Program-made: the position numbers and the translations under genes
NCBI GenBank assembly: GCA_947488305.1
Contig: CANKZM010000001.1
Coordinates: 62,001 to 126,000, forward strand
From: an uncultured Roseobacter sp.
GTDB lineage: Bacteria; Pseudomonadota; Alphaproteobacteria; Rhodobacterales; Rhodobacteraceae
Length of the DNA: 64,000 nucleotides
Direction: 5' to 3'
Notes under the pieces: model-generated
What the model was told of the DNA's origin: nothing
Seen by the model: the letters and a program-made list of their open reading frames with translations, nothing else
Databases searched by the model: none
Shown here: positions 48,675-63,472 of the stretch, piece after piece
How the letters are laid out: each line of letters starts with the position of its first letter
How positions within the stretch are numbered: position 1 is the first letter of the stretch

Positions 48675-49715
48675 CTATTCTGCAGCCTGCGACTCTGCTG
48701 TTTCGCTTTTGATCGCACGCTCAAGCATCAGGCGAAACGTCTTGGCACCGGCATCCAGCCCCATGTCAATGTGCGGGGTTGTGGCATGCTTCATGCCCAG
48801 ATGCACCTTTTCAAGGATATCCTTGTCTTCCATGAAGGCCATTCGCGCGCCATCGTTCATGAACTTTGACACTTCGGTGTCATTGGGCCGCCCATTACGG
48901 TGCTGTACCCAGAAGTACCGCGAGCGATCCTCGTCTATCGGCGTCATGAAGTTGTAGCTGATGTTGATAAATGTCTTTTCCACCGGTGGGCGATCATAGC
49001 CCCCCGTGCCAACGGGCGTGTAGATTGATTTGTTCAGTCCAATGGCGGGCAGACACATCTCGTAATGCTGAAGTCGGTCACAATTGCCTTCGAACTCAAC
49101 GACATTGGCGTAATAGGGCGAGGGCGGTCGGTCAGCGATCCAGCGAGACACGATGACCCCCCGGTCGGTTTTGGTCAGATCCAGAGGTTCATCATCGGTA
49201 CCGGCCCCCGCAAAGGAACTGACGTGCACCCAGGCCACGTGCGACGGGTCCAATAGATTGTCGCAGATCCAAAGATAGTGACAGTCGATGTCCATCACGC
49301 CGCCATCGGTAAGACCCCATGACGGGTTGTCAAAATTTTCAATCGGGAAGATATCGTCAGGATTGGCAAGATCAGGGTCGCCCATCCATATCCAGGTAAA
49401 CCGATAGCGGTCTACGACGGGGTAGGATTTCACAACCGCCCGCCGCGGAATTGAATCCGCTTGGGTCGGGGCTGCGACACAGGTGCCCGAACAGTCAAAC
49501 GTCAGCCCGTGATAGCCACACTCAACGGTGTCTCCCTTGAGAGCACCATCACTCAGAGGCAACTTGCGGTGCGGGCAGGCGTTTTCCAGCGCCACGGGCC
49601 TGCCGTCTTGCTGACGGTACATCACGATGTTTTCGCCCAAGAATGTCTCAGCCCGCAGCTCTCGCCCGATATCTTTGCTCCAAGCTGCAACATACCAACA
49701 GTTTTTCAAGAACAT
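48675..49715 (-). CDS. Rieske non-heme iron oxygenase, alpha subunit
   Basis: About 346 aa when started at 49715 (MFLKNCWYVAAWSKDIG, the usual N-terminus of the VanA-like group); the frame is open to 49784. The Rieske cluster is C-x-H-x17-C-x2-H (ACPHRKLPL ... ECGYHG, about residues 46-70). The mononuclear-iron facial triad lies around NLLDPSHVAWVH (His, His) and a later Asp. Such enzymes hydroxylate or demethylate aromatic or N-methyl substrates. A separate ferredoxin is encoded at 53039. It shares an operator motif with the LysR/M29 promoter. Confidence 0.9.
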   Translation of the reverse strand: MFLKNCWYVAAWSKDIGRELRAETFLGENIVMYRQQDGRPVALENACPHRKLPLSDGALKGDTVECGYHGLTFDCSGTCVAAPTQADSIPRRAVVKSYPVVDRYRFTWIWMGDPDLANPDDIFPIENFDNPSWGLTDGGVMDIDCHYLWICDNLLDPSHVAWVHVSSFAGAGTDDEPLDLTKTDRGVIVSRWIADRPPSPYYANVVEFEGNCDRLQHYEMCLPAIGLNKSIYTPVGTGGYDRPPVEKTFINISYNFMTPIDEDRSRYFWVQHRNGRPNDTEVSKFMNDGARMAFMEDKDILEKVHLGMKHATTPHIDMGLDAGAKTFRLMLERAIKSETAESQAAE

Positions 49716-49801
49716 GGGGCCCGCTCTCATTCCAGATTGAAAGTTACCTTCAGTATGTTCAAAAAACCGGCCTGCTGCCATCATAGATTGTTAATTTGAG
49801 G

Positions 49802-49818
49802 TATTAGAATCTCTAATT
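49802..49818 (-). promoter_or_regulatory. LysR operator copy upstream of the Rieske gene
   Basis: TATTAG-AATCT-CTAATT. The inner ATTAG-N5-CTAAT is identical to that at 50740-50754. It overlaps the LysR stop codon, about 87-103 bases upstream of the Rieske start. T-N11-A geometry fits LysR. Confidence 0.6.
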
Positions 49819-50739
49819 CTCGTGATGGCGGGGTGGCGGTATGTCTGCCTGTTGCGCGGCTTGTTCCAATATCCAATCCCGAAACACTGAAATGCGCTCC
49901 GATGTGGGTGCGTCTTCGCGTTGGACCAGCCAATAGCTGAGGGGTGATCGGGTGATCTGCGGGAAGGGGCGCACCAATTGACCGGACATCAGCGCATCAA
50001 TGACCAGAGGTTCCCGCCCCAGAGCGACACCAAGCCCTGCGATGGCTGCCTGTACAATCATGTTTGACTGGCCCAATTGCCGTGTCTTGCGGGGCGCAGG
50101 CGCCGTAAGGCCACAGGCGCGTGCCCAGAAATCCCAAGTGGGGCTGGCGGTTCCGTGGTGAAGGTTTTCATCCATCAGCAAAGTCTGTTGCCACATATCC
50201 TCGATTTTGGTGATCCGGGGAAGCAAGGCAGGAGCGCAGACCGGGAACAGCCGTTCGTGCATAAGGCGTTCGGCCTGCGCACCGGGGAAATCCCCGACAC
50301 CGTATCTGATGCCGACATCGGCGCCTCCGCCAAAGGGCGCTTCACCTGTGTCTGTGGCGATGGAGACTGATAGTTCAGGATGCGCCAGATCAAAGTGAAG
50401 CAGCCGCGGAAACAGCCAGTTGAAGGCAAAGCCAGGCAGGCACGAAACGACGATCGTCCGGTCTGTTTTAGCTTTGTCACGCAGATGCGTACAAACGTCT
50501 GAGACGCGGCCCAACCCGTCGCGGATTGCACGCGCCAGATGTTCGCCCTCCTGCGTCGGGCGAGAGTAGCGCGCGCCCCGCACTAACAAGGCCTGACCCA
50601 GCCATTCCTCCAGGGCTTTGACGTGTTGGCTGACGGCGCTTTGGCTGACACCCAATTCATCCGCTGCGGCGGAGAATCCTGACAGTCGAACAACCGCCTC
50701 AAAGGCGCGCAGGGCCGAATACGGGAGGTTCACAATCAT
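49813..50739 (-). CDS. LysR-type regulator (GcvA-like)
   Basis: A 308-aa regulator if started at 50739 (MIVNLPYSALRAFEAVVRLS, a typical GcvA-like start); an ATG at 50763 is possible. Helix-turn-helix SAAADELGVSQSAVSQHVKA (about residues 22-41) and a type II effector domain to the C-terminus. It lies between the Rieske gene and the divergent M29-type gene. Identical palindromic sequences at both its ends suggest that it regulates both. Confidence 0.88.
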   Translation of the reverse strand: MIVNLPYSALRAFEAVVRLSGFSAAADELGVSQSAVSQHVKALEEWLGQALLVRGARYSRPTQEGEHLARAIRDGLGRVSDVCTHLRDKAKTDRTIVVSCLPGFAFNWLFPRLLHFDLAHPELSVSIATDTGEAPFGGGADVGIRYGVGDFPGAQAERLMHERLFPVCAPALLPRITKIEDMWQQTLLMDENLHHGTASPTWDFWARACGLTAPAPRKTRQLGQSNMIVQAAIAGLGVALGREPLVIDALMSGQLVRPFPQITRSPLSYWLVQREDAPTSERISVFRDWILEQAAQQADIPPPRHHEN

Positions 50740-50755
50740 ATTAGCCAACCTAATA
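50739..50755 (+). promoter_or_regulatory. LysR operator copy between LysR and M29-type gene
   Basis: TATTAG-CCAAC-CTAATA is a perfect 6-5-6 inverted repeat. Its core is the same ATTAG-N5-CTAAT as upstream of the Rieske gene. It overlaps or closely precedes the LysR start and lies about 81 bases upstream of the M29-type start. Confidence 0.65.
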
Positions 50756-50835
50756 CGGCTCATAAATACTTTCAAATGTTATGCGCCTGTCTGCGGCCCT
50801 ATCATCAAACACGCGTTGTGCGTGAGGGGAGTTAC

Positions 50836-51948
50836 ATGTCAGATTTCACACCCGAACAAGGTGCGAGAAACCTTCTGACCAATTGTGCCAGGGCCGTGGC
50901 CGGCGATCGGCTGCTGATCGCCTATGAGCCGCCGGAGTTTGGATATTTCGACGCTGACGCGGTCAAGATCGTCGCGGATGCCGCCAAGTCACTGGGATTG
51001 CACGTAGATTCAGTTGACGTCGGGTTTGATCCTGACACCCCGCACTTGCGCCCAGAACTGCTCCAACACTTCGAGGCAGCTGACATTATTCTTTTCCTTG
51101 CGCGCCTTGGTGATCAACTGCGGTTTTCCGAAATGCCAAAAGGCAAGAAGATCATCGTCAGCTTTGCGCTGAACCGTGCGTTGTTTGGATCGGGATTCTC
51201 CAATGGGCACCACGATGCGTTTGTGAAAATCAAGGACGGTATCAACTCTGTACTGGCACAGGCTGATGATGTCCGGATCAGCTGCCGATTGGGAACTGAG
51301 GTGCGCGGGCGGCCTGTTATGAACCCGAGTGAGGCGGGGGATACCTCAATATTACGGTTCCCCATGTCGATCTTCACCCCTGTTCCAGGCTACACCTTTT
51401 CGGGACGCGTGGCAGTGACCTTTCTGACCGGCACCGGGTCCCGTTACTATGACAACTACAATATTGAGTTCGACAGCCCGATTTTTGCGATCATGCAGAA
51501 TGGCAGGCTAACGCATTTTGAAGGCCCCGCATCAGAGGTTGCCAAAGCCGAAGCGCAGTATGACCGGGTTGCAGGGATGTATGGGATTGACCGGAATTTT
51601 GTGCATTCGTGGCATGCCGGCATTCATCCGGGGTGCAGTTACCCATGGGATATGCGGGAAAACTTTGAACAATGGGGTGGTTCGGCCTTTGGCAATCCAC
51701 GGATCTTGCATTTTCATACCTGCGGAGCCTATGCGCCGGGCGAGATTAGTTGGAACGTCATTGATCCGACGATTCATATTGATGGCATCCCCTTTTGGGA
51801 GTCCGGGGTTTTCCGGGCAGATAGATTGCCGCAAGGGCCGGAAATCCTGTCAGATTATCCGTGCGCTGCCGCATTGTTTGCGAACCCTGGATTGGAGATC
51901 GGGCTGGACGCAGTAGGCCGAAGCGATAGAGAAATGGTATGCCTCTAG
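50836..51948 (+). CDS. M29-family metallopeptidase-like protein, possible NicX-type dioxygenase
   Basis: A 370-aa cytoplasmic protein; GGGGAG before the ATG. The overall pattern is that of the thermophilic aminopeptidase (M29) superfamily, which also holds the Fe(II) ring-opening 2,5-dihydroxypyridine dioxygenase NicX. Candidate metal ligands lie in NYNIEFDSP, WHAGIHPG and HFHTCG. In a Rieske/ferredoxin/demethylase cluster, a ring-cleaving oxygenase is more plausible than a peptidase. That is an inference, and peptidase or hydrolase activity cannot be excluded. Confidence 0.7.
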   Translation: MSDFTPEQGARNLLTNCARAVAGDRLLIAYEPPEFGYFDADAVKIVADAAKSLGLHVDSVDVGFDPDTPHLRPELLQHFEAADIILFLARLGDQLRFSEMPKGKKIIVSFALNRALFGSGFSNGHHDAFVKIKDGINSVLAQADDVRISCRLGTEVRGRPVMNPSEAGDTSILRFPMSIFTPVPGYTFSGRVAVTFLTGTGSRYYDNYNIEFDSPIFAIMQNGRLTHFEGPASEVAKAEAQYDRVAGMYGIDRNFVHSWHAGIHPGCSYPWDMRENFEQWGGSAFGNPRILHFHTCGAYAPGEISWNVIDPTIHIDGIPFWESGVFRADRLPQGPEILSDYPCAAALFANPGLEIGLDAVGRSDREMVCL

Positions 51949-52099
51949 GGTCAGCGCCTCTTGATTTCGCTGTGCTATATTGCTTAGAATTAACCTCAAT
52001 GAAGCCAGGGGTGAGCCTGCTTTCATGGTACGGAGCACTCCGGTCTCCGGCGTCGATTGAGCAACATAAAACCAATCGGCATGATCTACGGAAAATCAC

Positions 52100-53035
52100 A
52101 TGACACAACCGATTGTTACGCCGCTGACTCAGGCTTTAGCAGAAGGCAAGCTGACGCGCGAAGAACTCAAATCCTTTATGCAGCGCTCTGACGCGCCTGC
52201 CTTGCGCCGACTGGTGCTTTGGGTGCTGGTGCTGATTGCCACGACCTCGTTGGTGACCCTGGCTTGGGACTCCTGGTTGATTTGGCCAGCAATGTTCATT
52301 CATGGGGTGGTGTTGGTGCATCATTTCTCTTTGCAGCATGAATGTGTGCATTACACCGTGTTTCGGACGCGCTGGCTGAACGATCTGGTCGGGCAAATCT
52401 GCGGGCTGATTCTGATCCTGCCGCATCGATTCTTTCGATATGAACATTGCGATCACCACACCTATACGCAGATTGAGGGGAACGATCCGGAACTGGTGCC
52501 CCTGCCCAAATCACTGGGCGCCTACCTGCTTTATCTCTCGGCGCTGCCCTATTGGCGTAGCAAGTTTACTGAAGTGGCGAGGCACGCGATGGGCAATCTG
52601 AATGCGGTTGAGCGGCGGTTCATTCCAAAGGAGGCGCAAAGGCACGTTTTTTGGGACGCGCGGATGATGCTGGGGGTTTATGCGATTTTTTTCCTTGGAA
52701 TGGCTGTCACCGGTTGGTGGGGGTTGATCTGGTATTGGCTTATCCCGCTTTTTCTTGGTGAACCCGTGATGCGCTTCATCCGCATGACCGAGCATGTCGG
52801 TCGCCCAACCGTGGCGCAGATGTCTGAGAACACGCGGACCAATATCGTGTCGAAACCCTGGCAGTTTTTATGCTGGAACATGAACTATCACGCCGAGCAT
52901 CATTATGTGGCCTCTGTTCCCTATCACGCATTACCGCGCCTGCATGAAAAGTTGAAAGACCACATTCATGTTGAAAAAGGTGGCTATCTGGCAGCACATC
53001 GGGAAATTCTGCGGCAAGTCATGGCGCAGGCCTGA
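52100..53035 (+). CDS. fatty-acid-desaturase-fold membrane di-iron enzyme
   Basis: A 311-aa inner-membrane protein with four or more hydrophobic segments and the three histidine boxes of the desaturase/hydroxylase superfamily: HHFSLQHECVH, EHCDHHTYTQ and NYHAEHHY. It needs an electron donor, and a Rieske ferredoxin gene follows after 3 bases. True fatty-acid desaturation is possible, but the cluster context suggests oxidation of the imported small molecule. The 150-base gap before it has no clear copy of the ATTAG-N5-CTAAT motif. Confidence 0.85.
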   Translation: MTQPIVTPLTQALAEGKLTREELKSFMQRSDAPALRRLVLWVLVLIATTSLVTLAWDSWLIWPAMFIHGVVLVHHFSLQHECVHYTVFRTRWLNDLVGQICGLILILPHRFFRYEHCDHHTYTQIEGNDPELVPLPKSLGAYLLYLSALPYWRSKFTEVARHAMGNLNAVERRFIPKEAQRHVFWDARMMLGVYAIFFLGMAVTGWWGLIWYWLIPLFLGEPVMRFIRMTEHVGRPTVAQMSENTRTNIVSKPWQFLCWNMNYHAEHHYVASVPYHALPRLHEKLKDHIHVEKGGYLAAHREILRQVMAQA

Positions 53036-53038
53036 GCG

Positions 53039-53356
53039 ATGCCGGGTGAGAAAAAGTGGCGCGACGTGATTGACGTTTCCGCATTGGAAGAGAAATGGGT
53101 GACGAGGGTAGATCTGGGCACGCGCAAATTGGCGATCTATGACACGCCGACGGGCTATTACGCGTCATTGGCGTTATGCAATCACGGCGGTGCGGACCTG
53201 TGTGATGGCTATTTCGACGGTCACATCATTGAGTGCCCCTTGCATCAGGGCGCCTTTGACGTGCGCGATGGCCATCCTGTCTGTGCGCCTGCGACCCGCC
53301 GCATGCGGGTTTTTGAAACGCGGGTTGAGAATGGAATGCTTCAGATCAAGGCCTGA
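53039..53356 (+). CDS. Rieske-type ferredoxin
   Basis: A 105-aa soluble [2Fe-2S] protein with both ligand pairs, CNHGGADL (about residue 47) and CPLHQGAF (about 66), and the Rieske loop between them. It should pass electrons to the desaturase-fold enzyme just upstream and/or to the Rieske oxygenase at 48675, since no dedicated reductase is present in the cluster. Its end faces the soxG end 3 bases away. Confidence 0.88.
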   Translation: MPGEKKWRDVIDVSALEEKWVTRVDLGTRKLAIYDTPTGYYASLALCNHGGADLCDGYFDGHIIECPLHQGAFDVRDGHPVCAPATRRMRVFETRVENGMLQIKA

Positions 53357-53359
53357 CCC

Positions 53360-53854
53360 TCAAGCCATGGCACGGGTCAGAAAGTCTTCGATCATGTTGC
53401 CAAAGCTCTGCTCGACCGCGCATTCAAAGCCACCCTCGCAACGCAGGACCAGCGCCTTGATGCCAAAGAATTCAGTATAGCTGACAGCATCCGGGCCAAA
53501 GACAGTGGCGTGCAAATCAAGTGTGCAACCGATTGACATCACCTCCAGGGCATCGGGGCCAGTGATCCGAAAGAACGTTTGGGTATCCGACACCCGCACG
53601 ATGGAGATTTCGGCAGGGGCATCTTGCGGCCTTAAGGTTTCGCTCAGCGCGGCCTCATTTTGCAAATCATCCCGCAAAAGCCAGCGATTTGGGCCGATAT
53701 GGCACAAGGCGGCGCTGCCCCGACGTTTCAACCTGCTGGGACCATTGGGGAATTCCAATGTGTCCTTGCTCCAGGCGGCCAGCGCCTCTTTTGGGCCCTT
53801 GAGGTCGAACAAGGCATAGATCGGCAAGCGATCAATCCGGGCATCATACGGCAT
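53360..53854 (-). CDS. soxG: sarcosine oxidase gamma subunit
   Basis: A 164-aa protein started at the ATG one base after the soxA stop; longer in-frame starts at 53887 and 53908 overlap soxA. SoxG family features: LFDLKGPKEALAAW near the N-terminus and RVSDTQTFFRITGPDALEVM in the core. It is the smallest accessory/folding and complex subunit of heterotetrameric sarcosine oxidase. Last gene of the soxBDAG operon, as usual. Confidence 0.88.
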   Translation of the reverse strand: MPYDARIDRLPIYALFDLKGPKEALAAWSKDTLEFPNGPSRLKRRGSAALCHIGPNRWLLRDDLQNEAALSETLRPQDAPAEISIVRVSDTQTFFRITGPDALEVMSIGCTLDLHATVFGPDAVSYTEFFGIKALVLRCEGGFECAVEQSFGNMIEDFLTRAMA

Positions 53855-53855
53855 A

Positions 53856-56762
53856 TCAGGATCTGAGCCTTTCACCACCGGCGTCATAGTGGATGGGCGG
53901 TGTGACACGCGCGGGGATAACGCCGTCGTTCAGGCGCACATGCACGGTTTCACCGTGGCGGGAATGTCCGTTTTCCAACAGGGCCAGCCCGACCCAGCGG
54001 TCATGCACCGTGCTGTAGACGCAGGCGGTGACGAACCCTTCGGTCGGCTTTTTCTCACCTCCCGGTGTAAGCGGGCCGCCTTCGGGGATCATGCGGTCCG
54101 GTTCGGGGATCACGCCGACAAGTTCGCGCCGATTGGAGGTACCGGCACGGCGCAGTGCCACGGAACGTTTGCCCAAGTAATCAGCTTTCTTCTTGGACAT
54201 CGCCCATCCAAGGCCGAGATCGAAAGGATCGATGGGCCCGTCGACCTCATGGCCCAGCGACAGGAACCCTTTTTCGACCCGCAGCACATGATTTGCCTCT
54301 GACCCGATGGGTGCGATGCCAAAGGGTACGCCGACCTCCAGAATTCTTTGCCACAAACGCAGCAGATCACGCGGGGCGACGTTGACCTCAAACGACAACT
54401 CGCCGGTAAAGCTGACGCGCACCACGCGCGCCGGGATGTCCGCAACATGGCCCTCCGCAAAGGCCATGAACGGCAGCGCTTCGGTCGAGATGTCGATATC
54501 CGTGCCAAGCGCCTGCATGACCTCGCGGGCTTTCGGGCCGCAGATGGTGGCGTTGTTCCATTGGCTGGTGACCGTAGTGATGAAAACGTTCCAGTCTGGG
54601 AACTCGGTTTGCAGGATTTCTTCCATATGCCCGTTTATCGCATCCGCATGCCCGGTTGAGGTCGAGATGATCCAGCGGTCTTGCGACAGTCGGAGCGCAA
54701 CACCGTCATCCATCACCAGCCCGTCGTCACTTAGCATCAGGCCGTACCGCGCACGCCCGACTTTCAGGTTGGACATGACGTTGGTGTAGAGATGATCGAG
54801 AAAACGACCCACATCGCGGCCCTTCAGCTCAAATGTCCCAAGGGGAGAGCCGTCATAGACGCCCACATCGTTGCGTACTGTGCGGCATTCGCGGTTGACC
54901 GTATCCTGGAACGCCTCGCCAGCGCGCGGGAAATACCCGGGGCGGCGCCAGCGCGCGCCGGATTCATACATGAAGGCCCCGTTGGCAAGGTTCCATGCCG
55001 TGACGGGTGTATGACGATAGGGCAGGGCAACCGAGCCCTCTCGGATACCACCAATCGCACCAAAGGACACAGGCGTGTAGGGCGCTCGGAATGTGGTGGT
55101 GCCGACCTCATCCAGTGGCAGGCCCTTTTGCATCGCGACCGTGCCGATGATGTTGATGTTACCCACCTTGCCCTGGTCGATGCCCATGCCACCGGTCGTG
55201 TAGCGTTTGACATGTTCGACGTTGTCATAACCTTCGCGCAGCGCCAGGTGGACGTCATCCACCGAAACGTCGTTTTGCATATCGAGAAAGGCTTTGCCGC
55301 TGGCCTGTTCGACCTGCCAGAGCGGATCGACAGCATAGTCCAGATCATCTGAGGCTGGGATATCAGGGAGCGCGCCGCCATTTGCGCCCGCCTCTGCACC
55401 GCTGCGCAGCGCTTCCGCCAGAACAAGATGGCCATCAGCAGCCCCTGCTGAAGCAGCGCTTTGCGCAGCCTTGTCAGGCCGGAAGGTAGACAGCGCTTGA
55501 TCGTAGGCAAGGGTACCGCGCGATTGAGACCACAAGTGCACAGCAGGGTTCCAACCGCCAGACACGGTAACTAGATCGCAGGTGATCTTGCGGCCAGTGC
55601 CCCCTTTGGCGGGCGCAACAGTAACGGCTCTGACACGGCGTCTGCCATGCGTCGTGGTGATCACCTGGCCTGATAAAACCTCCACCCCGGGCACGCTGGC
55701 GCGGGCGACTTCCGGCGGGTTTTCGCGGCTGTCCACAATGGCTGCAATCTCAATCCCGGAGGCTTGCATGTCCGCGGCGACAGCATAGGCGGAGTTGTTG
55801 TTTGTAAAGATCACGGCGCGCTTGCCGGGACGCACAGCATAGCGATTGACGTAGGTTTGCACGGCCGAGGCGAGCATCACGCCAGGGCGGTCATTGTTGC
55901 CAAAGACCAGCGTGCGTTCAATCGCGCCTGTGGCACACAGGACCTGACCCGCCCGCACGCGCCAGTTACGCTCAAGGATCGAAGGTTGTTCCGGTTCGCG
56001 TTCATTCACCATTACGAAGTTGTGCTCGCGATAACCCCAGACAGTTGCGTTCTGAAGGTGTCTGACGTTGGATAATCCAGCCAACTCGGCAGAGACTGAT
56101 CGCACCCACTCCATCGCGGGCTTGCCATCAATCATCAGGTTCCGGCTGAGCAAACTACCACCGGGCTCAGAGCCTTCATCGACCAGCATCACCCGCTGCC
56201 CGGCACGACCTGCCACCAATGCCGCCATCAAACCGGCCGGACCCGCACCCGCAATCAGCAGATCACAATGTGCATACCGATTTTCAAAATGCCCCTCTTT
56301 GGGGGGCTCGGCAGGTGCGGCGGCAAGGCCAGCCGCCTTGCGGATGAACGGTTCATAAAGATGCCAGTTGGGCCACTTGAAAGTCTTGTAATAGAAACCC
56401 GCGGGGAGAAAGCGCGCAAACATCTGGTTGATCGCCCCGACATCCAGCTCTGGCGAGGGCCAGCAGTTCACCGACTTGGCCGCCAGCCCCTCGCGCAGGG
56501 CTACAGTGGTGACAGGCCGGTTGCCGGACGCATCATCGCCCAGCAATTCCACCAGTGTCGAAGGTTCTTCAACACCTGAACCGACAATCCCGCGCGGGCG
56601 GTGGTATTTGAAACTGCGGGCTGTCAGACGTACACCGTTCGCCAGCAGGGCCGAGGCCAGCGTGTCGCCTTCAAAGCCCTGATAGGGGCGGCCATTGAAG
56701 GTGAAGTTCAATGTTTTGGTGCGGTCAATCCGCCCGCCATTATCAAGTCGATCAGTCTGCAT
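53856..56762 (-). CDS. soxA: sarcosine oxidase alpha subunit
   Basis: About 968 aa when started at 56762, where AAGGG precedes the ATG; the frame is open to 56786. It has an N-terminal ferredoxin-like fold region (FNGRPYQGFEGDTLASALLA), an NAD-binding site LLIAGAGPAGLMAALVAGRAG-type (given as GAGPAGLM near residue 175), and a GcvT folate-binding C-terminal domain. In the complex it helps transfer the oxidised methyl group to tetrahydrofolate. Length is typical. The substrate may be sarcosine or another N-methyl amino acid. Confidence 0.93.
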   Translation of the reverse strand: MQTDRLDNGGRIDRTKTLNFTFNGRPYQGFEGDTLASALLANGVRLTARSFKYHRPRGIVGSGVEEPSTLVELLGDDASGNRPVTTVALREGLAAKSVNCWPSPELDVGAINQMFARFLPAGFYYKTFKWPNWHLYEPFIRKAAGLAAAPAEPPKEGHFENRYAHCDLLIAGAGPAGLMAALVAGRAGQRVMLVDEGSEPGGSLLSRNLMIDGKPAMEWVRSVSAELAGLSNVRHLQNATVWGYREHNFVMVNEREPEQPSILERNWRVRAGQVLCATGAIERTLVFGNNDRPGVMLASAVQTYVNRYAVRPGKRAVIFTNNNSAYAVAADMQASGIEIAAIVDSRENPPEVARASVPGVEVLSGQVITTTHGRRRVRAVTVAPAKGGTGRKITCDLVTVSGGWNPAVHLWSQSRGTLAYDQALSTFRPDKAAQSAASAGAADGHLVLAEALRSGAEAGANGGALPDIPASDDLDYAVDPLWQVEQASGKAFLDMQNDVSVDDVHLALREGYDNVEHVKRYTTGGMGIDQGKVGNINIIGTVAMQKGLPLDEVGTTTFRAPYTPVSFGAIGGIREGSVALPYRHTPVTAWNLANGAFMYESGARWRRPGYFPRAGEAFQDTVNRECRTVRNDVGVYDGSPLGTFELKGRDVGRFLDHLYTNVMSNLKVGRARYGLMLSDDGLVMDDGVALRLSQDRWIISTSTGHADAINGHMEEILQTEFPDWNVFITTVTSQWNNATICGPKAREVMQALGTDIDISTEALPFMAFAEGHVADIPARVVRVSFTGELSFEVNVAPRDLLRLWQRILEVGVPFGIAPIGSEANHVLRVEKGFLSLGHEVDGPIDPFDLGLGWAMSKKKADYLGKRSVALRRAGTSNRRELVGVIPEPDRMIPEGGPLTPGGEKKPTEGFVTACVYSTVHDRWVGLALLENGHSRHGETVHVRLNDGVIPARVTPPIHYDAGGERLRS

Positions 56763-57009
56763 TGCCTGGCCCTTCGACGATGTCATGGGTCCGGGTGTCG
56801 CGCCAGATCGATAGCCAGGTGCCGCATCCCTTCACATGCCACCAACGCTCTTCAACCGGGCCAAGCGGATTGGGCACCTGGGTTAGGTAATCGGCCCATT
56901 CATCGTCGCTGGTGGCATTCGGATCAGGCCGACGCGGCTTGACCGGACCACCAAAGGCGAACTCCGCCTCGTTCCGGGGGCCACAAAAGGGGCAGGGGAT
57001 ATTCATCAT
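56752..57009 (-). CDS. soxD: sarcosine oxidase delta subunit
   Basis: An 85-aa zinc-binding subunit. CPFCGPRNEAEF at the N-terminus and a later HVKGCGTW supply the metal ligands, and ATSDDEWADYL is family-typical. It overlaps the soxA start by about 11 bases and follows soxB by 12. It stabilises the heterotetramer. Confidence 0.9.
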   Translation of the reverse strand: MMNIPCPFCGPRNEAEFAFGGPVKPRRPDPNATSDDEWADYLTQVPNPLGPVEERWWHVKGCGTWLSIWRDTRTHDIVEGPGNAD

Positions 57010-57021
57010 TTCTGGCTGCTC

Positions 57022-58272
57022 CTATCTGGCCGTGGTTGTGCCGGTTTCCATCACGTAATCAAGGTGGCGGAAACGTTTCAGCGTAAAGTCTTTCATCAGC
57101 TCATGCGGTCTGCCGGTGGCCACCAGATGGGCCAGCGTCAGTCCCCCTGCGGGGATGGCCTTGTAGCCGCCCCACCATCCAGCAGTTACAAACAACCCCG
57201 GTACATCTGTTTCATCCATGATCGGCGAGGCATCTTGCGCGATGTCCAAGTGACCACCCCACTGACGCATCAGTTTGAGCTTTTTGAACGATGGGAAGAG
57301 AGAGAGCATCGCCGAGACCGTATCCTCAAACACATGCTGCTTGATGTCGCGGCGGAAAGACTGACCCATGTCTGGGGCGCCGCCTATCACCATTTCGCCC
57401 TTGTCGGACTGACTGAAATAGAACCCGGCGTCGGGGCAGTTCACGATCACATCCACCAGCGGTTTGACAGGTTCCGATACGAAGGCAGTCAAGTTCATTG
57501 TACGCAGGGGCAGTTTCAGCCCGGCAGTTTCAGTAAGCGTTGTGGTGTGACCGGAGACAGCCACAGCAACCTTTTTCGCGCGGATCAGTCCGCGGTTGGT
57601 TTGCAAGCCCTCAATCGCGCCATCGGCGCCGCGCACCAGGCTTTCGACCGCTGTCTGCTGATGAATCTCGCCCCCCAGCGCGTCTATCGCGCGCGCATAG
57701 CCCCAGGCGACCGCATCATGTCGGTTCACGCCGGCATCCGTATGGACCATGCCACCGATTACGGGCAGCCGGGATCCCGGCCCGCCGCCGGTCAGAGCGG
57801 GAATGCGCTTGCGTACTTCGGCCTCTGAAATGCGTTTATAGGTGGAGCCATAAATATCCATGATATGTTGGCGCCGCCGCCGGTCGCGCATCATTGGATA
57901 ATTTTGGATCACATCAATCATGGTGCGTTTGGAGTGCATCATGTTGAAGTTCAACTCTTTCGTCATCTCTTCGTAGAGGGCAACGGATTTGACGTAGAAA
58001 GGGATCGACTGATCCCGCATGTAGTTCGAACGGATCGTAATGGTGTTGCGGGCAATGTTGCCGCCCCCCAGCCAGCCGCGTTCTACCACAGCGATATTTG
58101 TAACCCCATGTTCCTTGGCGAGATAATAGGCCGTCGCCAACCCGTGACCGCCCGCGCCGATGATAACAACATCATAGCTTTCCTTCAGCGGTGGGCTTCG
58201 CCAGGCTTTGGGCCAAGAGGTATGATTGTTGATGCCGTGACGCAGCAACGAGGCGATGGAGTATTTTTGCAT
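57022..58272 (-). CDS. soxB: sarcosine oxidase beta subunit
   Basis: A 416-aa flavoprotein started at MQKYSIASLLRHGINNH, the usual SoxB N-terminus; the frame is open to 58317. The FAD motif is VVIIGAGGHGLATAYYLAKE and the FMN-linked loop region follows with GNIARNTITIRSNY. It carries the oxidative demethylation site. First gene of soxBDAG and divergent from a LysR gene. Confidence 0.92.
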   Translation of the reverse strand: MQKYSIASLLRHGINNHTSWPKAWRSPPLKESYDVVIIGAGGHGLATAYYLAKEHGVTNIAVVERGWLGGGNIARNTITIRSNYMRDQSIPFYVKSVALYEEMTKELNFNMMHSKRTMIDVIQNYPMMRDRRRRQHIMDIYGSTYKRISEAEVRKRIPALTGGGPGSRLPVIGGMVHTDAGVNRHDAVAWGYARAIDALGGEIHQQTAVESLVRGADGAIEGLQTNRGLIRAKKVAVAVSGHTTTLTETAGLKLPLRTMNLTAFVSEPVKPLVDVIVNCPDAGFYFSQSDKGEMVIGGAPDMGQSFRRDIKQHVFEDTVSAMLSLFPSFKKLKLMRQWGGHLDIAQDASPIMDETDVPGLFVTAGWWGGYKAIPAGGLTLAHLVATGRPHELMKDFTLKRFRHLDYVMETGTTTAR

Positions 58273-58284
58273 CATAAGCACATA

Positions 58285-58301
58285 GTTTACTATTGGTAAA
58301 C
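58285..58301. promoter_or_regulatory. LysR operator candidate in the soxB-LysR gap
   Basis: GTTTAC-TATTG-GTAAAC is a perfect 6-5-6 inverted repeat with T-N11-A geometry, 13 bases upstream of the soxB ATG and 98 before the LysR ATG. It is different in sequence from the ATTAG-N5-CTAAT motif, so it should belong to the adjacent LysR. Confidence 0.6.
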
Positions 58302-58398
58302 ATTCGTCAAGCGGCATAGGGCCTTTCCCCGATGGAAAAAACAGTCGAGAATGGGCTCACAGGAACTCTCGCTCAATCAGCCCTTCAAGGAGCCGAAG

Positions 58399-59289
58399 AT
58401 GAAAATCACTTTCCGACAGGTGGACGCTTTTCGCGCGGTGGTTTCCTCTGGCAGCGTGAAAGGTGCATCAACCCTGTTGGGGGTGTCTCAACCCGCGATC
58501 AGTCGTTTGATTTCTGATCTGGAAAGCGAAGTCGGGTTCGCGCTGTTTGCCCGGCAGGGCAGGGCGCTGGTCCCGACGCCGGAAGGGCGGTTGTTGGTAG
58601 GAGAGATCAGGCAGGCGATCACCGGGATGGAGCACATCAAAGATGCCGCAAACGTGATTGCCAATTTCGGTCACACCGCCGTCCAGCTCGTCACGATCCC
58701 CAGCTTTGCCGGGGGGCTGGCGCCGGACCTGATCGCGCGATTTGGCGCCGCGCACCCCCAAGTCAAGATGTGCCTGGAGATTGAGGCCAACGATGACACG
58801 GTTGAGTGGCTGGTCTTGCAGAACCATGACTTTGGCCTGACAACGAGCGTGCCGACAAACCCCGCTTTGGCACATATGCCAATGGAAGAAGGCAGCGTTT
58901 ACTGTGTTTTGCCGCAAGAACACCGGCTGGCGTCGAAATCGCAAATTGCTCCAAAGGATCTTCATGGTGAGTGCTTTGTGAGCTATTTGGCCGGATCGCG
59001 GTTCAGGCATGACATCGACACCGTCTTTGAGGCGGCCGGTGTTACGCGTGAGTTGCGCTTTGAAACGCGCACGTCGGATGCAATCTGTCAGCTCGTTGCT
59101 CGGCGTTTGGGAGTGTCGGTCGTGGCCACATCACATGCAGCGGATGAAATACCGGGGTGCGTTGCGGTTCCGTTCAAGGCTCGGCTGGACATGCAGGCGG
59201 TCCTGATCTGGCCGACGAACCGACTTTTGTCCGCTCCGGCAAACAGTTTTTTGGAGATGGTACGAAAGAGCCGAAACGCCTGTGACTAA
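58399..59289 (+). CDS. LysR-type regulator next to soxBDAG
   Basis: A 296-aa regulator. AAGGAG 6 bases before the ATG at 58399 fixes this start rather than 58351. HTH region GASTLLGVSQPAISRLISDL (about residues 20-39), effector domain to the end. It is divergent from soxB and probably activates sox and perhaps the ABC importer. It overlaps the convergent permease gene by 4 bases. Confidence 0.9.
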   Translation: MKITFRQVDAFRAVVSSGSVKGASTLLGVSQPAISRLISDLESEVGFALFARQGRALVPTPEGRLLVGEIRQAITGMEHIKDAANVIANFGHTAVQLVTIPSFAGGLAPDLIARFGAAHPQVKMCLEIEANDDTVEWLVLQNHDFGLTTSVPTNPALAHMPMEEGSVYCVLPQEHRLASKSQIAPKDLHGECFVSYLAGSRFRHDIDTVFEAAGVTRELRFETRTSDAICQLVARRLGVSVVATSHAADEIPGCVAVPFKARLDMQAVLIWPTNRLLSAPANSFLEMVRKSRNACD

Positions 59290-60176
59290 CGCGTATCGGA
59301 TCGTTTCTCAAAACGCGCGAACAGTCGACTGAGGCCAAAGCAAATGATGAAGTAGAAGGCCGCGGTCGTAATCCATGCCTCAAAGATCATGCGCGATGAA
59401 GCGACAAGCTCTACCGTCTTATAGGTCAGTTCCTGCACCGAGATCAGCGAGATGATCGAACTGTCCTTGATCAGTGTGATGAACTGGTTTGCCATCGGAG
59501 GAACAACCTTTTTCATCGCTTGGGGCAACACGATGTAGCGCAATTCCTGCATCCGGCTCATGCCGATGGATCGGGCCGCCTCGCGTTGGCCTTTCGGGAC
59601 CGACTGGATGCCTGCTCGCACGATTTCACCAACAAAGGCGCTTTCGAACAGTGCAAGCACGATGACGCCAGAGATCAGCGAGGGAAACCGGCGCATATCG
59701 CCAAAGAAGAATTCCCAAAGCCAGATGTCCTCTTGCCGCGCAATCCCGCGCGACCAGCGCGCAAGGTTCAGGGCATCGATCAACTGTTGTGAGAGGAAGA
59801 AGAAAAAGATGAATACCACGACGACCGGTGGAATGTTGCGTAGGAATTCGAGGTAGGTGCGGGCGAGCATCCGGACAGTCAGGTTGGCGGAACAGCGGGC
59901 CACGCCAAGGATCGTGCCAAGGATTAGCGCCAGAATACTGGCGTAAATGCTGATGCGGATGGTCGCCATCAATCCCTGCAACAGCAGGTTGGCAAAATAC
60001 TCCTCGCGGCCTGAATGCCAGCCGACGATGTAGCTCGGGATCAACTCCCAACGCCATTTGTAGTTCAGGGTGCCCTCGATCGAGAACCAGATATATCCGA
60101 AAAAGGCAATCAGAACCGCCAGTATCAGATAGTCAGGCCATCTTAGTTTGGAAAAGAAGTTCGACACTTCGGGCAC
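59286..60176 (-). CDS. polar amino-acid-type ABC permease (second)
   Basis: A 296-aa HisM/GlnP-family permease. Family segment is PKGQREAARSIGMSRMQELR with the cytoplasmic EAA loop. Five to six transmembrane helices, plus a long periplasmic insertion before helix 2. It completes the importer with the ATPase, first permease and binding protein upstream. Last gene of that operon. Confidence 0.92.
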   Translation of the reverse strand: MPEVSNFFSKLRWPDYLILAVLIAFFGYIWFSIEGTLNYKWRWELIPSYIVGWHSGREEYFANLLLQGLMATIRISIYASILALILGTILGVARCSANLTVRMLARTYLEFLRNIPPVVVVFIFFFFLSQQLIDALNLARWSRGIARQEDIWLWEFFFGDMRRFPSLISGVIVLALFESAFVGEIVRAGIQSVPKGQREAARSIGMSRMQELRYIVLPQAMKKVVPPMANQFITLIKDSSIISLISVQELTYKTVELVASSRMIFEAWITTAAFYFIICFGLSRLFARFEKRSDTR

Positions 60177-60189
60177 CCATTTTAGGCCG

Positions 60190-60207
60190 GGGGCGACCGC
60201 TCGCCCC
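60190..60207 (-). terminator. intercistronic hairpin after the binding-protein gene
   Basis: GGGGCGA and TCGCCCC pair with a CCGC loop in the 45-base gap between binding-protein and permease genes. No T-run. Same arrangement as after livK-type and aepX-type genes in this window. Confidence 0.6.
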
Positions 60208-60221
60208 AGGATTTCTGAACG

Positions 60222-61034
60222 TTATTGAGCGACCTGGTCAGCCCATTCCTCCGTGGCGAACCAGTAGTTGTGACGCTCTTCCAGCCAACCGGTACGCCAC
60301 TGCTGTGCAATCCAGTTGTTGAAGTAGTTCAGCGCATCAGGGTCACCCTTGCGCATCACGAAGCCTTCGCCGCGTGGGTCAAACAGGTCACCTTCGACCA
60401 CTACCAGAACGTCTGGGTTCCGACCGGCTTCGCGGTTCGGAGTGGGCTGGGACGCCATGGTGGCATGCGCATTCCCGTTCAGAACTTCCTGGGTGGAAGC
60501 GCCATCCTCATCAAACAGCAAGAGGTTCGCCTCGGGGAAGTTTTCCGCGATGACCACTGCAGGTGTCGCGCCGCGCCGAGCCGCAAATGTTACATCAGGA
60601 GAGTTCATATCCTCCAGTGACATGCCCGCCGTCATTTCCTTGTTCGCCAGAATAGCCAAACCGGTAAATGCGTAAGGGTCCGAGAAGTTGACAGTCAGGG
60701 CCCGCTGCGGCGTGTAGGACATGCCTGAGATGATCACGTCAAAGTTGCCGGAGACAAGCGCGGGAATAATTCCATCCCATGCGGTTGGCACAAATTCGAC
60801 CTCAACGCCCATATCCTCGGCCAGCTTGCGACCGACATCCAGTTCATAGCCGATCAGATCGCCATTCTTATCACGCATTGACCATGGGACAAAAAGGGAA
60901 AGACCAATGCGGATGACCCCATCCTGTTTGATCGTTTCTATCACCGATTGCTCTTGCGCACTTGCCGGTACGGCAAGGCCAAGGGCAGCGGTGGCGGCCA
61001 GGGCAAGGCCAATAATTCTTCGTGGCAGTTTCAT
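60222..61034 (-). CDS. polar amino-acid-type ABC substrate-binding protein
   Basis: A 270-aa periplasmic protein with a signal peptide (residues 1-26, ending VPASA) and one SBP_bac_3 domain (GVIRIGLSLFVPWSMRDKNG; RALTVNFSDPYAFTGLAI). This family binds charged or zwitterionic amino acids and related compounds. The catabolic cluster next to it suggests a betaine, an N-methyl amino acid or a pyridinium carboxylate as ligand. Confidence 0.93.
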   Translation of the reverse strand: MKLPRRIIGLALAATAALGLAVPASAQEQSVIETIKQDGVIRIGLSLFVPWSMRDKNGDLIGYELDVGRKLAEDMGVEVEFVPTAWDGIIPALVSGNFDVIISGMSYTPQRALTVNFSDPYAFTGLAILANKEMTAGMSLEDMNSPDVTFAARRGATPAVVIAENFPEANLLLFDEDGASTQEVLNGNAHATMASQPTPNREAGRNPDVLVVVEGDLFDPRGEGFVMRKGDPDALNYFNNWIAQQWRTGWLEERHNYWFATEEWADQVAQ

Positions 61035-61067
61035 AAGTACCTCCTTGGTGATGGTTGAGCGGTTTCG

Positions 61068-61910
61068 TTATTGAGCAACGGCATATCTCCGCTCGAGATA
61101 ACTGACGCCGATAGACAGGATCAGGGTCACCACCATGTAGACGATTGCAACGGTGAACCAGATTTCAAAGCTCATGTAAGTGTCGGAAATGATGTTGCGG
61201 CCAAATGTTGTCAGCTCTGCAACCGCAATCACGCTGACAATGGCAGAGGATTTGATCAGGTGTACAACCTCACCCGTCATCGGTGGCAACATGAAGCGCA
61301 CCGATTGGGGCAGAATGATGTAGCGATAGGTCTGACCGGTGGTCATCCCGATGGATTTGGCAGCTTCCCACTGGCCCTGGGCTACGGCATTGATCCCCGC
61401 GCGCAGAATTTCCGAGATCAGTGCGGAGTGGAATACGGCCAGCGTCAGGATCGACGCGGTATAGCGGTCGAATTTAAAAATCGGCCCCAAGACGTAGTAA
61501 AACAAATAGAGGAGCACGAGCAGCGGAATATTGCGGATGAATTCCAGAAAGCAGACCGCAACGGCGGAACCGACAATCAGCCCCGACAGGCGCAATAGTG
61601 CGACCAGCAAGCCAAGTGCGGTAGCAAGCACAAAGGCGGTCAAAGACAGCCGTATAGTTGCGCCCAGGCCAATCAGTAACTCGCCAGGCTGAAACCCATC
61701 ATCCGTAAAGCTGTAGAGGTACTGGGGAACGCGATACCATTGCCAACTGTAGCCCATGTTCTGGGCGCCGGTATAAGATCCCCAACAAATCACCCCGATG
61801 ACCAGCAGGTAGATGACAACAGAAATGAAAGTGGAACCAAAGAACTTTTGTACCGGGGACTGCTGCGGCAGTGGCGCGCCTTTGATCATTGGCAAATCAG
61901 TCGCGCTCAT
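61068..61910 (-). CDS. polar amino-acid-type ABC permease (first)
   Basis: A 280-aa HisM/GlnP-family permease. Coupling loop AQGQWEAAKSIGMTTGQTYR and the MLPPMTGEVVHLIKSSAIVS segment are characteristic. One base separates it from the ATPase stop. It pairs with the permease at 59286. Confidence 0.92.
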   Translation of the reverse strand: MSATDLPMIKGAPLPQQSPVQKFFGSTFISVVIYLLVIGVICWGSYTGAQNMGYSWQWYRVPQYLYSFTDDGFQPGELLIGLGATIRLSLTAFVLATALGLLVALLRLSGLIVGSAVAVCFLEFIRNIPLLVLLYLFYYVLGPIFKFDRYTASILTLAVFHSALISEILRAGINAVAQGQWEAAKSIGMTTGQTYRYIILPQSVRFMLPPMTGEVVHLIKSSAIVSVIAVAELTTFGRNIISDTYMSFEIWFTVAIVYMVVTLILSIGVSYLERRYAVAQ

Positions 61911-61911
61911 C

Positions 61912-62694
61912 TCAATGTTCCAGAATCTGATCTAGGAACATGCGGCAGCGTTCGCTGGATGGGTTGGTAAAGAACTGCTCGGGGGGCGAGATTTCGACGA
62001 TCTGGCCCTCTTCCATAAAGACCATCGTGTCAGCTACTTTGCGGGCGAACCCCATCTCGTGGGTGACCACGACCATCGTCATGCCGGTGTCTGCAAGCCC
62101 CACCATCACGTCAAGCACCTCATTGATCATCTCGGGATCGAGGGCCGAGGTTGGCTCGTCAAACAACATGATTCGGGTTTCCATGCAAAGCGATCGGGCG
62201 ATGGCGACCCGCTGCTGTTGGCCCCCGGACAATTGCGCGGGGTATTTTTCTGCCTGTTCGGGGATGTGCACGCGTTCGAGGTATTTGCGCGCGGTCTTTT
62301 CGGCCTCAGATTGGCTGATCTTGCGAACTTTCATTGGCCCGATGGTCAGGTTTTCCAGCACGGTCAGGTGTGGAAACAGGTTGAACTGCTGAAATACCAT
62401 CCCCACTTCCTGTCGCAGATCCCGGATCTGTTTGGAGTTCTGGTGCACTTCGATACCGTCGATGATCAGCGTACCGGAATTGTGCCACTCCAGCCCGTTA
62501 AAGCAGCGGATCAGCGTCGATTTGCCGGACCCGGACGGTCCGCAAATCACCATTTTCTCGCCCTGCTGCACCTCCAGGTTCACATCTTTCAATGCGTGAA
62601 AAGACCCGTAGAACTTGTCTAGATTCGTGACGCGGATCATGGGGTCTGACGTGGTCACGGCGGGCCTCTCATCGAATTGCGTGAAACGGGGCAA
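61912..62694 (-). CDS. polar amino-acid-type ABC ATP-binding protein
   Basis: A 260-aa GlnQ/HisP-type ATPase with Walker A GPSGSGKST, signature LSGGQQQRVAIARSL, Walker B IMLFDEPTSALDPE and switch VVTHEMGF. A later in-frame start (MIRVTNLDKFYG at about 62640) is also reasonable. First gene of the importer operon, divergent from the CMD-family gene. Confidence 0.93.
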   Translation of the reverse strand: MPRFTQFDERPAVTTSDPMIRVTNLDKFYGSFHALKDVNLEVQQGEKMVICGPSGSGKSTLIRCFNGLEWHNSGTLIIDGIEVHQNSKQIRDLRQEVGMVFQQFNLFPHLTVLENLTIGPMKVRKISQSEAEKTARKYLERVHIPEQAEKYPAQLSGGQQQRVAIARSLCMETRIMLFDEPTSALDPEMINEVLDVMVGLADTGMTMVVVTHEMGFARKVADTMVFMEEGQIVEISPPEQFFTNPSSERCRMFLDQILEH

Positions 62695-62785
62695 AGCCCT
62701 GCGTTTGCTCTTCGAAGCGACCTCGGGACCGCCACCATTGCATCGGTGGTACGATCAGACAGCTTCTCGGTGCACGGCATCAAAG

Positions 62786-62820
62786 TTGCATATTAATTAA
62801 CATGGTTGCTTAATGTGCAA
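62786..62820. promoter_or_regulatory. large inverted repeat in the ABC importer/CMD divergent gap
   Basis: TTGCATATTAA (62786-62796) and TTAATGTGCAA (62810-62820) are inverted copies with one mismatch, 13 bases apart, with TTAATTAA at 62793. It lies between divergent starts at 62694 and 62894, so one regulator, perhaps the XRE-cupin protein at 63479, could control both sides. Confidence 0.5.
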
Positions 62821-62893
62821 TACTCGTCAATATAAAATTAACCATGCGGGATTTGGCTCGCGTAGTTCTGCCGCCAGCATGAAAGGGTTCAAG

Positions 62894-63472
62894 ATGTCTG
62901 CATGGATCAAAATGATCTCTGATGAGGACGCTGACGCGCCGTTGCAGGCCGCTTTGGATCTGGCAAGAACGCCACATGGGACTGTCGACAATGTGATGCG
63001 GGTGCACTCGCTGCGACCCAGCACGATGAATGGCCATGTAATCCTTTATCGCGCCTGTCTGCACGATCAGACCAACACGGTGCCAATGTGGTTTCAGGAA
63101 GTCATCAGTTCCTATGTGTCCGTCCTGAATGAATGTCCCTACTCATACGCCAACCATTGGAGCAACGCGCGGCATCTGATCGGTGATGAGCGACGCGCCG
63201 ATGACGTCGAGGCAGCACTGCAAGACCGTGCGCCGGAAAAAGCATTTGAAGGTAAGCAGTTGGAGGCACTACGCTACGCTGAAAAGCTGACCTGCGCGCC
63301 CGGAAAAATGGCAGAAACTGACATTACGCCGATGCGCGGTGCCGGCTGGGATGACGGCGAAATCCTCGAGATCAACCAGATCATCTGTTACTTCAACTAT
63401 GCCAACCGCCTGCTGAACGGGCTTGGGGTGACAACTGCGGGCGATGTTGTCGGGTATTACAAGAAAGACTGA
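62894..63472 (+). CDS. carboxymuconolactone decarboxylase/AhpD-like (peroxidase-related) protein
   Basis: About 192 aa, started at MSAWIKMISDEDAD, which has AGGG 5 bases upstream; longer starts exist at 62879 and 62813. CMD/AhpD-family fold. The active-site region NECPYSYANHW has one Cys followed by Ser where AhpD has CxxC, with the His retained. So a thiol-disulfide cycle of the AhpD type is not expected. Such proteins are often beside oxidative pathways. Exact reaction unknown. Confidence 0.8.
   Translation: MSAWIKMISDEDADAPLQAALDLARTPHGTVDNVMRVHSLRPSTMNGHVILYRACLHDQTNTVPMWFQEVISSYVSVLNECPYSYANHWSNARHLIGDERRADDVEAALQDRAPEKAFEGKQLEALRYAEKLTCAPGKMAETDITPMRGAGWDDGEILEINQIICYFNYANRLLNGLGVTTAGDVVGYYKKD

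Follow-up and report, generated by a model that had tools for sequence, protein, structure and literature searches.

The window, by which we mean the whole 64,000-nucleotide stretch analysed (contig CANKZM010000001.1 of an uncultured Roseobacter sp., positions 62,001 to 126,000), carries the block of genes listed in Table 1. Every part of it named in the original prediction was recovered in place by open reading frame (ORF) calls and scans of Pfam and NCBIfam. These parts are an ABC importer of the polar amino-acid type (59286-62694, minus strand), a Rieske oxygenase (RoVanA) and a desaturase-fold enzyme paired with a Rieske ferredoxin, all recognizable by Pfam domains, a protein likened to both M29 peptidases and NicX (M29a), contiguous SoxG, SoxA, SoxD and SoxB genes (53360-58317, minus strand), two LysR regulators and an XRE-cupin regulator, the last labelled by reading of the sequence and by orthology. 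An AhpD-like protein belongs to the block too. The interpretation first placed on these genes – import, ring oxidation and opening, then N-demethylation – is partly supported by the analyses that follow.

Table 1. Genes of the block in window coordinates; counts of loci refer to the best 80 of 396 related loci.
Feature	Position	Strand	Evidence
Rieske non-heme iron oxygenase, VanA_C type (RoVanA)	48675..49784	-	Pfam VanA_C 8.8e-39, Rieske 1.8e-21; 62/80 loci
LysR regulator, divergent from NicX-like gene	49813..50775	-	Pfam HTH_1, LysR_substrate; 54/80 loci
NicX-fold protein M29a, candidate ring-cleaving dioxygenase	50836..51948	+	Predicted fold; ORF opens at 50776 (50776-51948 +), likely start 50836
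FA_desaturase-fold di-iron hydroxylase	52100..53035	+	Pfam FA_desaturase 3.8e-43; labelled in 51/80 loci
Rieske ferredoxin	53039..53356	+	Pfam Rieske 3.9e-14; labelled in 37/80 loci
SoxG-like subunit	53360..53908	-	Pfam SoxG 21.1 bits (cut-off 21); TIGR01375 2.4e-14
SoxA-like subunit with GCV_T folate-binding domain	53856..56786	-	TIGR01372 1170.5 bits (cut-off 1164); GCV_T 4.3e-60
SoxD-like subunit	56752..57009	-	Pfam SoxD 5e-28
SoxB-like subunit, cluster-specific clade	57022..58317	-	TIGR01373 477.6 bits (cut-off 529.45)
Second LysR regulator	58351..59289	+	Pfam HTH_1, LysR_substrate; labelled in 5/80 loci
ABC permease 2	59286..60176	-	ORF, operon position; orthologue in 39/80 loci
Periplasmic binding protein, polar amino-acid type	60222..61034	-	Best solved relative 9e2b, 4.4e-79
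ABC permease 1	61068..61910	-	ORF, operon position; orthologue in 33/80 loci
ABC ATPase	61912..62694	-	ORF; orthologue in 44/80 loci
AhpD-like (peroxidase-related) protein	62813..63472	+	TIGR01926 83.8 bits (cut-off 81.8); 44/80 loci
XRE-cupin regulator	63479..64000	+	Cut by window end; whole in L003:3480-4067 (to about window position 64066); orthologue in 23/80 loci

RoVanA, which shares its Rieske and VanA_C domains with the VanA- and dicamba-type oxygenases and with NdmA, is a candidate for ring hydroxylation or demethylation. Its nearest solved relatives are dicamba demethylase (3gb4, 1.1e-37; 7qwt, 1.8e-37) and then SxtDIOX/SxtT; the match to the N-demethylase NdmA is weak (1.2e-11). The desaturase-fold enzyme has both the FA_desaturase domain and the histidine boxes of that family: histidines 74, 80, 84, 116, 119, 120, 232, 264, 267 and 268 are invariant among 24 sequences. 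Its likeness in NCBIfam to the arginine hydroxylase GntB is weak (1.2e-11, far under the cut-off). The Rieske ferredoxin is presumed to be its electron donor, and at two other places (L075 and G261) the two genes occur without the rest of the cluster, in G261 side by side.

Comparison of predicted structures gives NicX, the 2,5-dihydroxypyridine dioxygenase of the nicotinate pathway, as the top fold match of M29a, well above the M29 aminopeptidases and at 13% identity. The likeness is one of fold and not of sequence family: by sequence, M29a matches no family or solved structure in Pfam, NCBIfam or PDB. The NicX part of the earlier M29/NicX-like label thus holds for the predicted fold, and finds nothing in those sequence collections. 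A peptidase reading was dropped because NicX is nearer in fold and a family scan found an M29 match in none of 27 M29a members. The iron site of NicX is of the 2-His-1-Asp kind, with ligands in a His, His-x-Asp arrangement; alignment of M29a homologues shows H260, H292 and H294 to be conserved, a sequence pattern that appears unlike that of the NicX ligands. M29a is rare: 10 of the 385 genomes searched in the class carry a homologue at E 1e-20, and 44 of 394 in the family. In the desaturase set, G605, G472, G518 and G759 hold cluster genes and show no match to M29a at E 1e-60, so a cluster can do without the NicX-type step or substitute another for it.

The SoxBDAG module resembles sarcosine oxidase and MgdABCD in its four subunits, in the folate-binding domain of SoxA and in the motif residues of SoxB: alignments to chains of 1vrq, 3ada and 2gag show that His, Arg and Lys, which we take to be the covalent FMN and substrate carboxylate residues, are kept. 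It differs in that SoxB, SoxD (91.6 bits, cut-off 116.5) and SoxG (53.5, cut-off 143.95) score under the curated NCBIfam cut-offs, with SoxA just over, and in the separate clade formed by its SoxB. The folate-binding domain found by Pfam supports the proposed removal of N-methyl groups to folate.

The cluster SoxB clade (31 rows, support 100) was obtained in two trees, both of which carry long-branch warnings and the second of which omitted L101, L182 and L197. The label "cluster" was given at more than 600 bits to the window's SoxB, and the clade's 30 relatives were all drawn from loci retrieved because of M29a or the desaturase, or from DNA flanking such loci. Two SoxB sequences from fetched loci, L182 and L197, fall outside the clade in the first tree; that of L182 shares its locus with M29a and a Rieske gene, and counts against the scheme proposed below. 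The window's own genome has three further SoxB genes, with neighbours that we take, by reading and recall, to be methylamine-type genes, metF and glutamate dehydrogenase; one of them (L191), named from its neighbours, is presumably a dmm (methylamine)-linked SoxB of the Mgd type. The cluster SoxB stands apart from all three and does not group with the dmm-linked clade, the grouping expected of an Mgd. Sarcosine or plain glycine betaine was rejected as the main reading of the substrate, given this distinct clade and the three further SoxB genes of the genome.

Residues of the binding protein give some indication of what the importer carries. Among window-type binding proteins the carboxylate-binding Arg111 is kept in 42 of 42, and the aspartate position, which we take to be the contact for a substrate's free alpha-ammonium, holds Ser in 29, Ala in 12 and Gln in one. 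Both transporter types retain the arginine (42/42 and 15/15) and lack the aspartate (0/42 and 0/15). The earlier proposal of import is supported in this form: the importer probably takes a carboxylate that has no free alpha-ammonium group.

In other genera, too, these genes are found as a group, though in differing order. M29a and the desaturase, carried by 44 and 27 of 394 genomes, respectively, are found together in 20 (Fisher p 4.9e-16). Gene order in relatives, which might have shown the genes to be unrelated, is shuffled across the best 80 of 396 loci, and membership is largely kept; these loci were picked by M29a, and truncated loci were scored as absences. Genes in related loci were labelled from their longest ORFs and top phmmer matches, with author-set score limits for the 80 loci, and in places one contig, to judge by its length, bears two labels (for instance L134 and G422, L133 and G651, and L176 and G609). 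Recurrence in varied orders, combined with co-occurrence, points to more than a chance grouping and supports the view of the block as a single catabolic unit. Across these 80 loci the place of the second LysR gene is often taken by one of XRE type.

Genes outside the core also recur. A search of 126 loci (query included, some genomes twice) located RidA beside the cluster at 19 places and a small CMD protein gene at 11; a creatininase is present in 11 of the best 80 of 396 loci. A GST-type gene adjoins the cluster in L206, and PurU in P. seriniphilus. All of these neighbours suit cleavage products and so count for the scheme, as do the trigonelline-type genes beside the cluster in some relatives. 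A desulfinase lead was rejected: the protein beside M29a in L210 is NMT1/THI5-like (0.00039), and the other loci searched held no homologue.

We give an even chance to the block being an aerobic breakdown route for an N-methylated heteroaromatic carboxylate, that is, a betaine-like zwitterion. Computation shows which gene families are present and that they occur jointly, that the SoxB forms a clade of its own, that M29a has a predicted NicX fold, that the binding-protein site is altered and that the cluster is linked to histidine utilization (hut) genes; every reaction and the order of the reactions we infer. The ABC importer would bring in the compound, and RoVanA, together with the desaturase-fold enzyme and its Rieske ferredoxin, would hydroxylate the ring or a side chain. 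The NicX-fold protein, with O2, would then cleave the hydroxylated ring to an N-formyl-type product, from which an accessory amidohydrolase, which differs between genomes (AstE, creatininase or Hut type), would release a free N-methyl amino acid. Tetrahydrofolate would then receive the N-methyl group through the SoxBDAG of the cluster, and the freed amino acid would enter a histidine or glutamate route. Counting against the scheme are the genomes whose cluster genes come without an M29a match, the eight M29a carriers that have neither hutH nor a HutG over the cut-off, and the desaturase/ferredoxin pair found alone. Homarine, trigonelline, proline betaine and similar compounds had been put forward as substrates; none is established, and a homarine-like pyridinium carboxylate and a compound of the N-methylated histidine kind are about equally likely.

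The strongest additional clue, unforeseen in the original prediction, is the hut linkage, which puts an N-methylated compound of the histidine type in serious contention with homarine. The gene hutH is present in 36 of 44 M29a carriers versus 165 of 350 other genomes (p 1.0e-5), and is no more than 9 kb away in five of the 36 (0.18 expected, P 1.0e-6); these values take genera as independent and a single mean genome size of 4.2 Mb, and larger genomes may more often hold both gene sets. In G566 (L194 with L056), G605 (L077 with L196) and G422 (L208 with L212) the hut genes lie within the cluster; in G749, G508, G424, L123, L140, L142 and L157 they flank it. Eight genomes of other families have an M29a homologue, three of them with hut beside it (L020, L021 and L022), and in one genome (L066, L133) a HutC-like regulator sits within the cluster with other hut genes absent. 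Together with the separation of the cluster SoxB from the methylamine-linked clade, these observations favour a betaine such as hercynine, ergothioneine, ovothiol or methylhistidine, which the oxygenases and SoxBDAG would demethylate to histidine or a Hut intermediate; we hold this as a tentative possibility. It is opposed by the eight of 44 carriers that lack hutH (six of them at least 96% complete), among them G442, whose cluster is compact and whose genome matches HutG not at all and HutF only weakly. Moreover, a NicX-type ring cleaver is superfluous if Hut opens the ring, and the complete hut set of the window's own genome is on another contig (C2, L199), not next to the block. The fuller proposal is rather unlikely, taken as one: a previously unreported aerobic pathway in which hercynine, ovothiols or related N-methylated histidine betaines from marine animals and algae pass through histidine to Hut, with Rieske enzyme, di-iron enzyme and SoxBDAG demethylating in turn and the NicX-fold iron enzyme in a new oxidative role. 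N-formylglutamate (HutG) as cause of the linkage found no support in HutG counts among genomes without hutH: none of eight carriers and one of 18 non-carriers exceed the cut-off, and matches of any strength occur in seven of eight and 18 of 18. HutF was likewise rejected, being over the cut-off in four of the eight genomes tried, including G565, which lacks hutH.

Homarine, the operon for which is reportedly named homABCDER, or a near pyridinium carboxylate, would instead undergo ring hydroxylation, NicX-type cleavage and deformylation to N-methylglutamate and then glutamate. The NicX fold of M29a fits this course, as do the trigonelline-type genes adjoining some copies and the binding-protein carboxylate site without aspartate; a sarcosine-oxidase-like enzyme is also common to both, Mgd taking part in homarine catabolism according to a 2026 paper (Nat Microbiol 11:1531-1546) as cited in PMC13390433. 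We regard homarine or such a near relative as a somewhat doubtful substrate. The genome already has its methylamine-linked Mgd-type SoxB, the cluster SoxB being of another clade, and M29a is rare whereas the published homarine pathway is termed conserved. R. pomeroyi, reported to draw homarine down fast (PMC12817926) and, in an earlier paper, to grow more poorly on it than on trigonelline (PMC8269262), is not among the best 80 of 396 M29a loci, although it may have a more distant copy. The homarine reading also leaves the hut linkage unexplained. Trigonelline degradation, of the TgnAB type, follows a comparable plan, in which an oxygenase opens the ring of an N-methylpyridinium carboxylate. 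LLM monooxygenase, flavin reductase and AA_synth genes adjoin some copies of the cluster, and trigonelline-type genes lie beside it in Leisingera and four Marivita loci; none of those three kinds of protein is among the scanned window proteins. It is unlikely that the locus is instead a catabolic island in which separate modules (betaine demethylation, desaturase/ferredoxin, hut and trigonelline genes) have gathered. Such an island would accord with the desaturase/ferredoxin pair standing alone, with the two arrangements (desaturase in 38 of 43 loci with a window-type binding protein versus 2 of 14 with type 17) and with hydroxyproline-type, trigonelline-type and hut genes each occurring as neighbours; but RoVanA, M29a, AhpD, SoxBDA and desaturase/ferredoxin are united even in the compact 2.6 Mb genome of G442, and membership largely survives the shuffling of order described above.

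Much of the nitrogen and carbon in the sea passes rapidly through a large pool of methylated zwitterions, and to our knowledge few pathways for their breakdown are known. Among the matches listed by literature searches, with most subscription journals outside their coverage, no publication was seen to describe such a cluster. A breakdown route of the kind proposed has a testable marker in the SoxB clade together with a NicX-fold protein without a Pfam match, and the hut linkage narrows the candidate substrates to a few compounds.

Carriers among the best 80 of 396 loci are mainly Rhodobacterales; cultured ones include Ruegeria conchae and Ruegeria sp. SCSIO 43209. Recorded sources of plasmid-borne copies include coral (Galaxea) and bryozoan washings (Bugula), and a distant homologue, also plasmid-borne, has a clam (Anadara) source. 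Several carrier species names among the best 80 of 396 loci, as we read them, point to sea squirts and microalgae.

All genes that the original prediction had placed in this block, as parts of a route for catabolism of an N-methylated heterocycle or betaine, are borne out by ORF listing and family scans; both permeases, the ABC ATPase and the XRE-cupin gene were instead identified from their sequences by reading and from orthologues. The last of these extends beyond the right edge of the window and is complete in the fetched locus L003.

Coordinates of block features and of related loci
Feature	Coordinates	Remark
Window	G000:C1:62001-126000	source genome 4.8 Mb, 31 contigs
M29a (NicX-fold protein)	window 50776-51948 (+)	likely start 50836
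Importer binding protein	window 60222-61034	
AhpD-like gene	window 62813-63472	also a block member
Other arrangement	L197:5079-13838	G582:C4
Second island, downstream	L003:5450-18843 and L004:1848-8972	G000; window coordinates ~65449 onward
Stand-alone desaturase-fold gene	G261:C1:2786375	L215

Among 394 genomes of the family, the NicX-fold protein M29a occurs in 44 (E at most 1e-60) and the desaturase orthologue in 27 (E below 1e-120); 20 genomes contain both (Fisher p 4.9e-16). Scanning the genomes of named species with an M29a alignment yielded 396 relatives, the best 80 of which were retained and their surroundings labelled over up to 10 kb per side (some contigs being shorter). Around these best 80 of 396 were found RoVanA, the VanA_C-type Rieske oxygenase (62/80), LysR1 (54), the desaturase (51), AhpD and the ABC ATPase (44 each), the binding protein (43), the Rieske ferredoxin (37), SoxA (28), SoxB (24), XRE1 (23), MATE (22), PhyH (18), P450 (15), a type-17 binding protein (14), AstE (13) and creatininase (11). 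Across these 80 loci block membership is mostly kept, while gene order and strand vary; in one 2.6 Mb genome (G442) SoxADB, AhpD, M29a, desaturase, ferredoxin and Rieske genes are adjacent to one another. Within the class M29a is infrequent: at E 1e-20 it is present in 10 of 385 genomes, counting the window's own. Nor is it universal to the cluster, the genes of which occur without it in G605, G472, G518 and G759.

The NicX fold, the Rieske enzyme, the importer and SoxBDAG are consistent with a pathway of oxidative ring-opening and N-demethylation that acts on an N-methylated heteroaromatic carboxylate. The window's genome encodes four SoxB: that of the block and three above the curated cut-off, whose neighbours we take, from sequence reading, to be methylamine (dmm-like) genes, glutamate dehydrogenase and metF. 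By two tree methods, both of which give a long-branch warning, 31 SoxB rows taken from cluster loci form a single clade (support 100) apart from the three other SoxB groups, and the desaturase is also present in 22 of the 24 named loci carrying this clade's SoxB. Outside the clade fall the SoxB of L182, though that locus has M29a and a Rieske gene, and that of L197, which adjoins a distant M29a homologue. Such a dedicated SoxBDAG enzyme suggests that the N-methyl substrate is a dedicated one too. L197 itself shows another arrangement, in which PhyH, AhpD-like, distant NicX-like, diverged SoxBDAG and Rieske oxygenase genes are adjoined by an MttB-like gene; it is perhaps a sister pathway.

In the importer, the carboxylate-holding arginine is kept in 42 of 42 binding proteins (the window's and 41 relatives), and the aspartate position of the ancestral amino-acid binder AncCDT-1 is occupied in these 42 by Ser (29), Ala (12) or Gln (1), and in 15 proteins of the second transporter type by Ser (14) or Thr (1). 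In amino-acid binders that aspartate contacts the alpha-ammonium group. With the arginine kept and the aspartate replaced, the importer probably binds a carboxylate that lacks an alpha-ammonium group, such as a betaine or ring carboxylate. The closest solved relative, 9e2b, likewise is without the aspartate.

The desaturase occurs in 38 of 43 loci having the window-type binding protein versus 2 of 14 having type 17 (SBP17), which ties the desaturase and its ferredoxin to one transporter and perhaps to one substrate. Many SBP17-type loci contain a creatininase gene, and a GST-type gene is found in one locus of this type, L206 (by Pfam), and in L210 and L213 (by sequence reading). A desaturase-fold gene also stands as a separate module, with the rest of the block absent within ~10 kb, in L075, L070 and G261; in L075 and G261 it has its own Rieske ferredoxin, and G261 additionally carries a distant M29a homologue ~36 kb from it.

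Two classes of substrate are candidates. Homarine-like pyridinium acids would match the NicX fold and the neighbouring genes of trigonelline type. In Leisingera M527 a flavin reductase, an LLM monooxygenase, AA_synth and an aldehyde dehydrogenase adjoin the block; AA_synth occurs in four Marivita loci, two of which also have LLM, at the locus edge. These genes resemble those for trigonelline. In Paracoccus seriniphilus the further neighbours are RidA, AstE, a 2Fe-2S ferredoxin and PurU, and there are RidA matches at 19 places in the 126 loci searched, query included; such neighbours would suit imine, formamide and C1 products. PMC13390433 cites a homarine pathway as already published, with which the block may overlap; we file the block as a variant of betaine and N-heterocycle catabolism rather than as that pathway.

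Histidine-type betaines would suit the separate SoxB clade and a link to histidine utilization (hut). The gene hutH, present in 201 of the 394 family genomes, is found in 36 of 44 M29a carriers and, among the genomes without M29a, in 165 of 350 (odds ratio 5.0, p 1.0e-5). It lies within 9 kb of M29a in 5 of the 36 (expected 0.18) and within 30 kb in 7 (expected 0.54). In G566 hut separates a Sox-ABC-AhpD-XRE-MATE-AstE half from a PhyH-P450-Rieske-LysR-M29a-desaturase-ferredoxin half; in G422 (one contig with L134) M29a is on one side of hut and a Rieske gene on the other, and in G605, without M29a, AhpD is on the far side. Hut flanks the block in G749, G508, G424, L123, L140, L142 and L157, L133 has a HutC-like gene only, and in other families an M29a homologue is beside hut in 3 of 8 homologue-bearing genomes. 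Against a strict need for hut, 8 of the 44 carriers are without hutH, none of these 8 having HutG over the cut-off, and the window's own genome has a complete hut set on a different contig from the block.

Downstream of the window lies a second catabolic island (some names by reading) with an amidase, an AllG-like protein, another Rieske oxygenase, an aldehyde dehydrogenase, AstE, a HisC-type aminotransferase, a two-part TPP decarboxylase (ComDE-like), an MttB family methyltransferase, an XRE-cupin, an oligopeptide-type ABC importer and a second NicX-like paralogue (36% identical). A similar M29-AhpD-ABC-LysR-ComDE-HisC-AstE set adjoins hut in G213 (L022). Finally, the 2.7 Mb genome G086, of the same class and a different family, gives 50 histidine ammonia-lyase family matches, most of them weak and of half length; ammonia-lyase-like proteins are thus unusually expanded in it.
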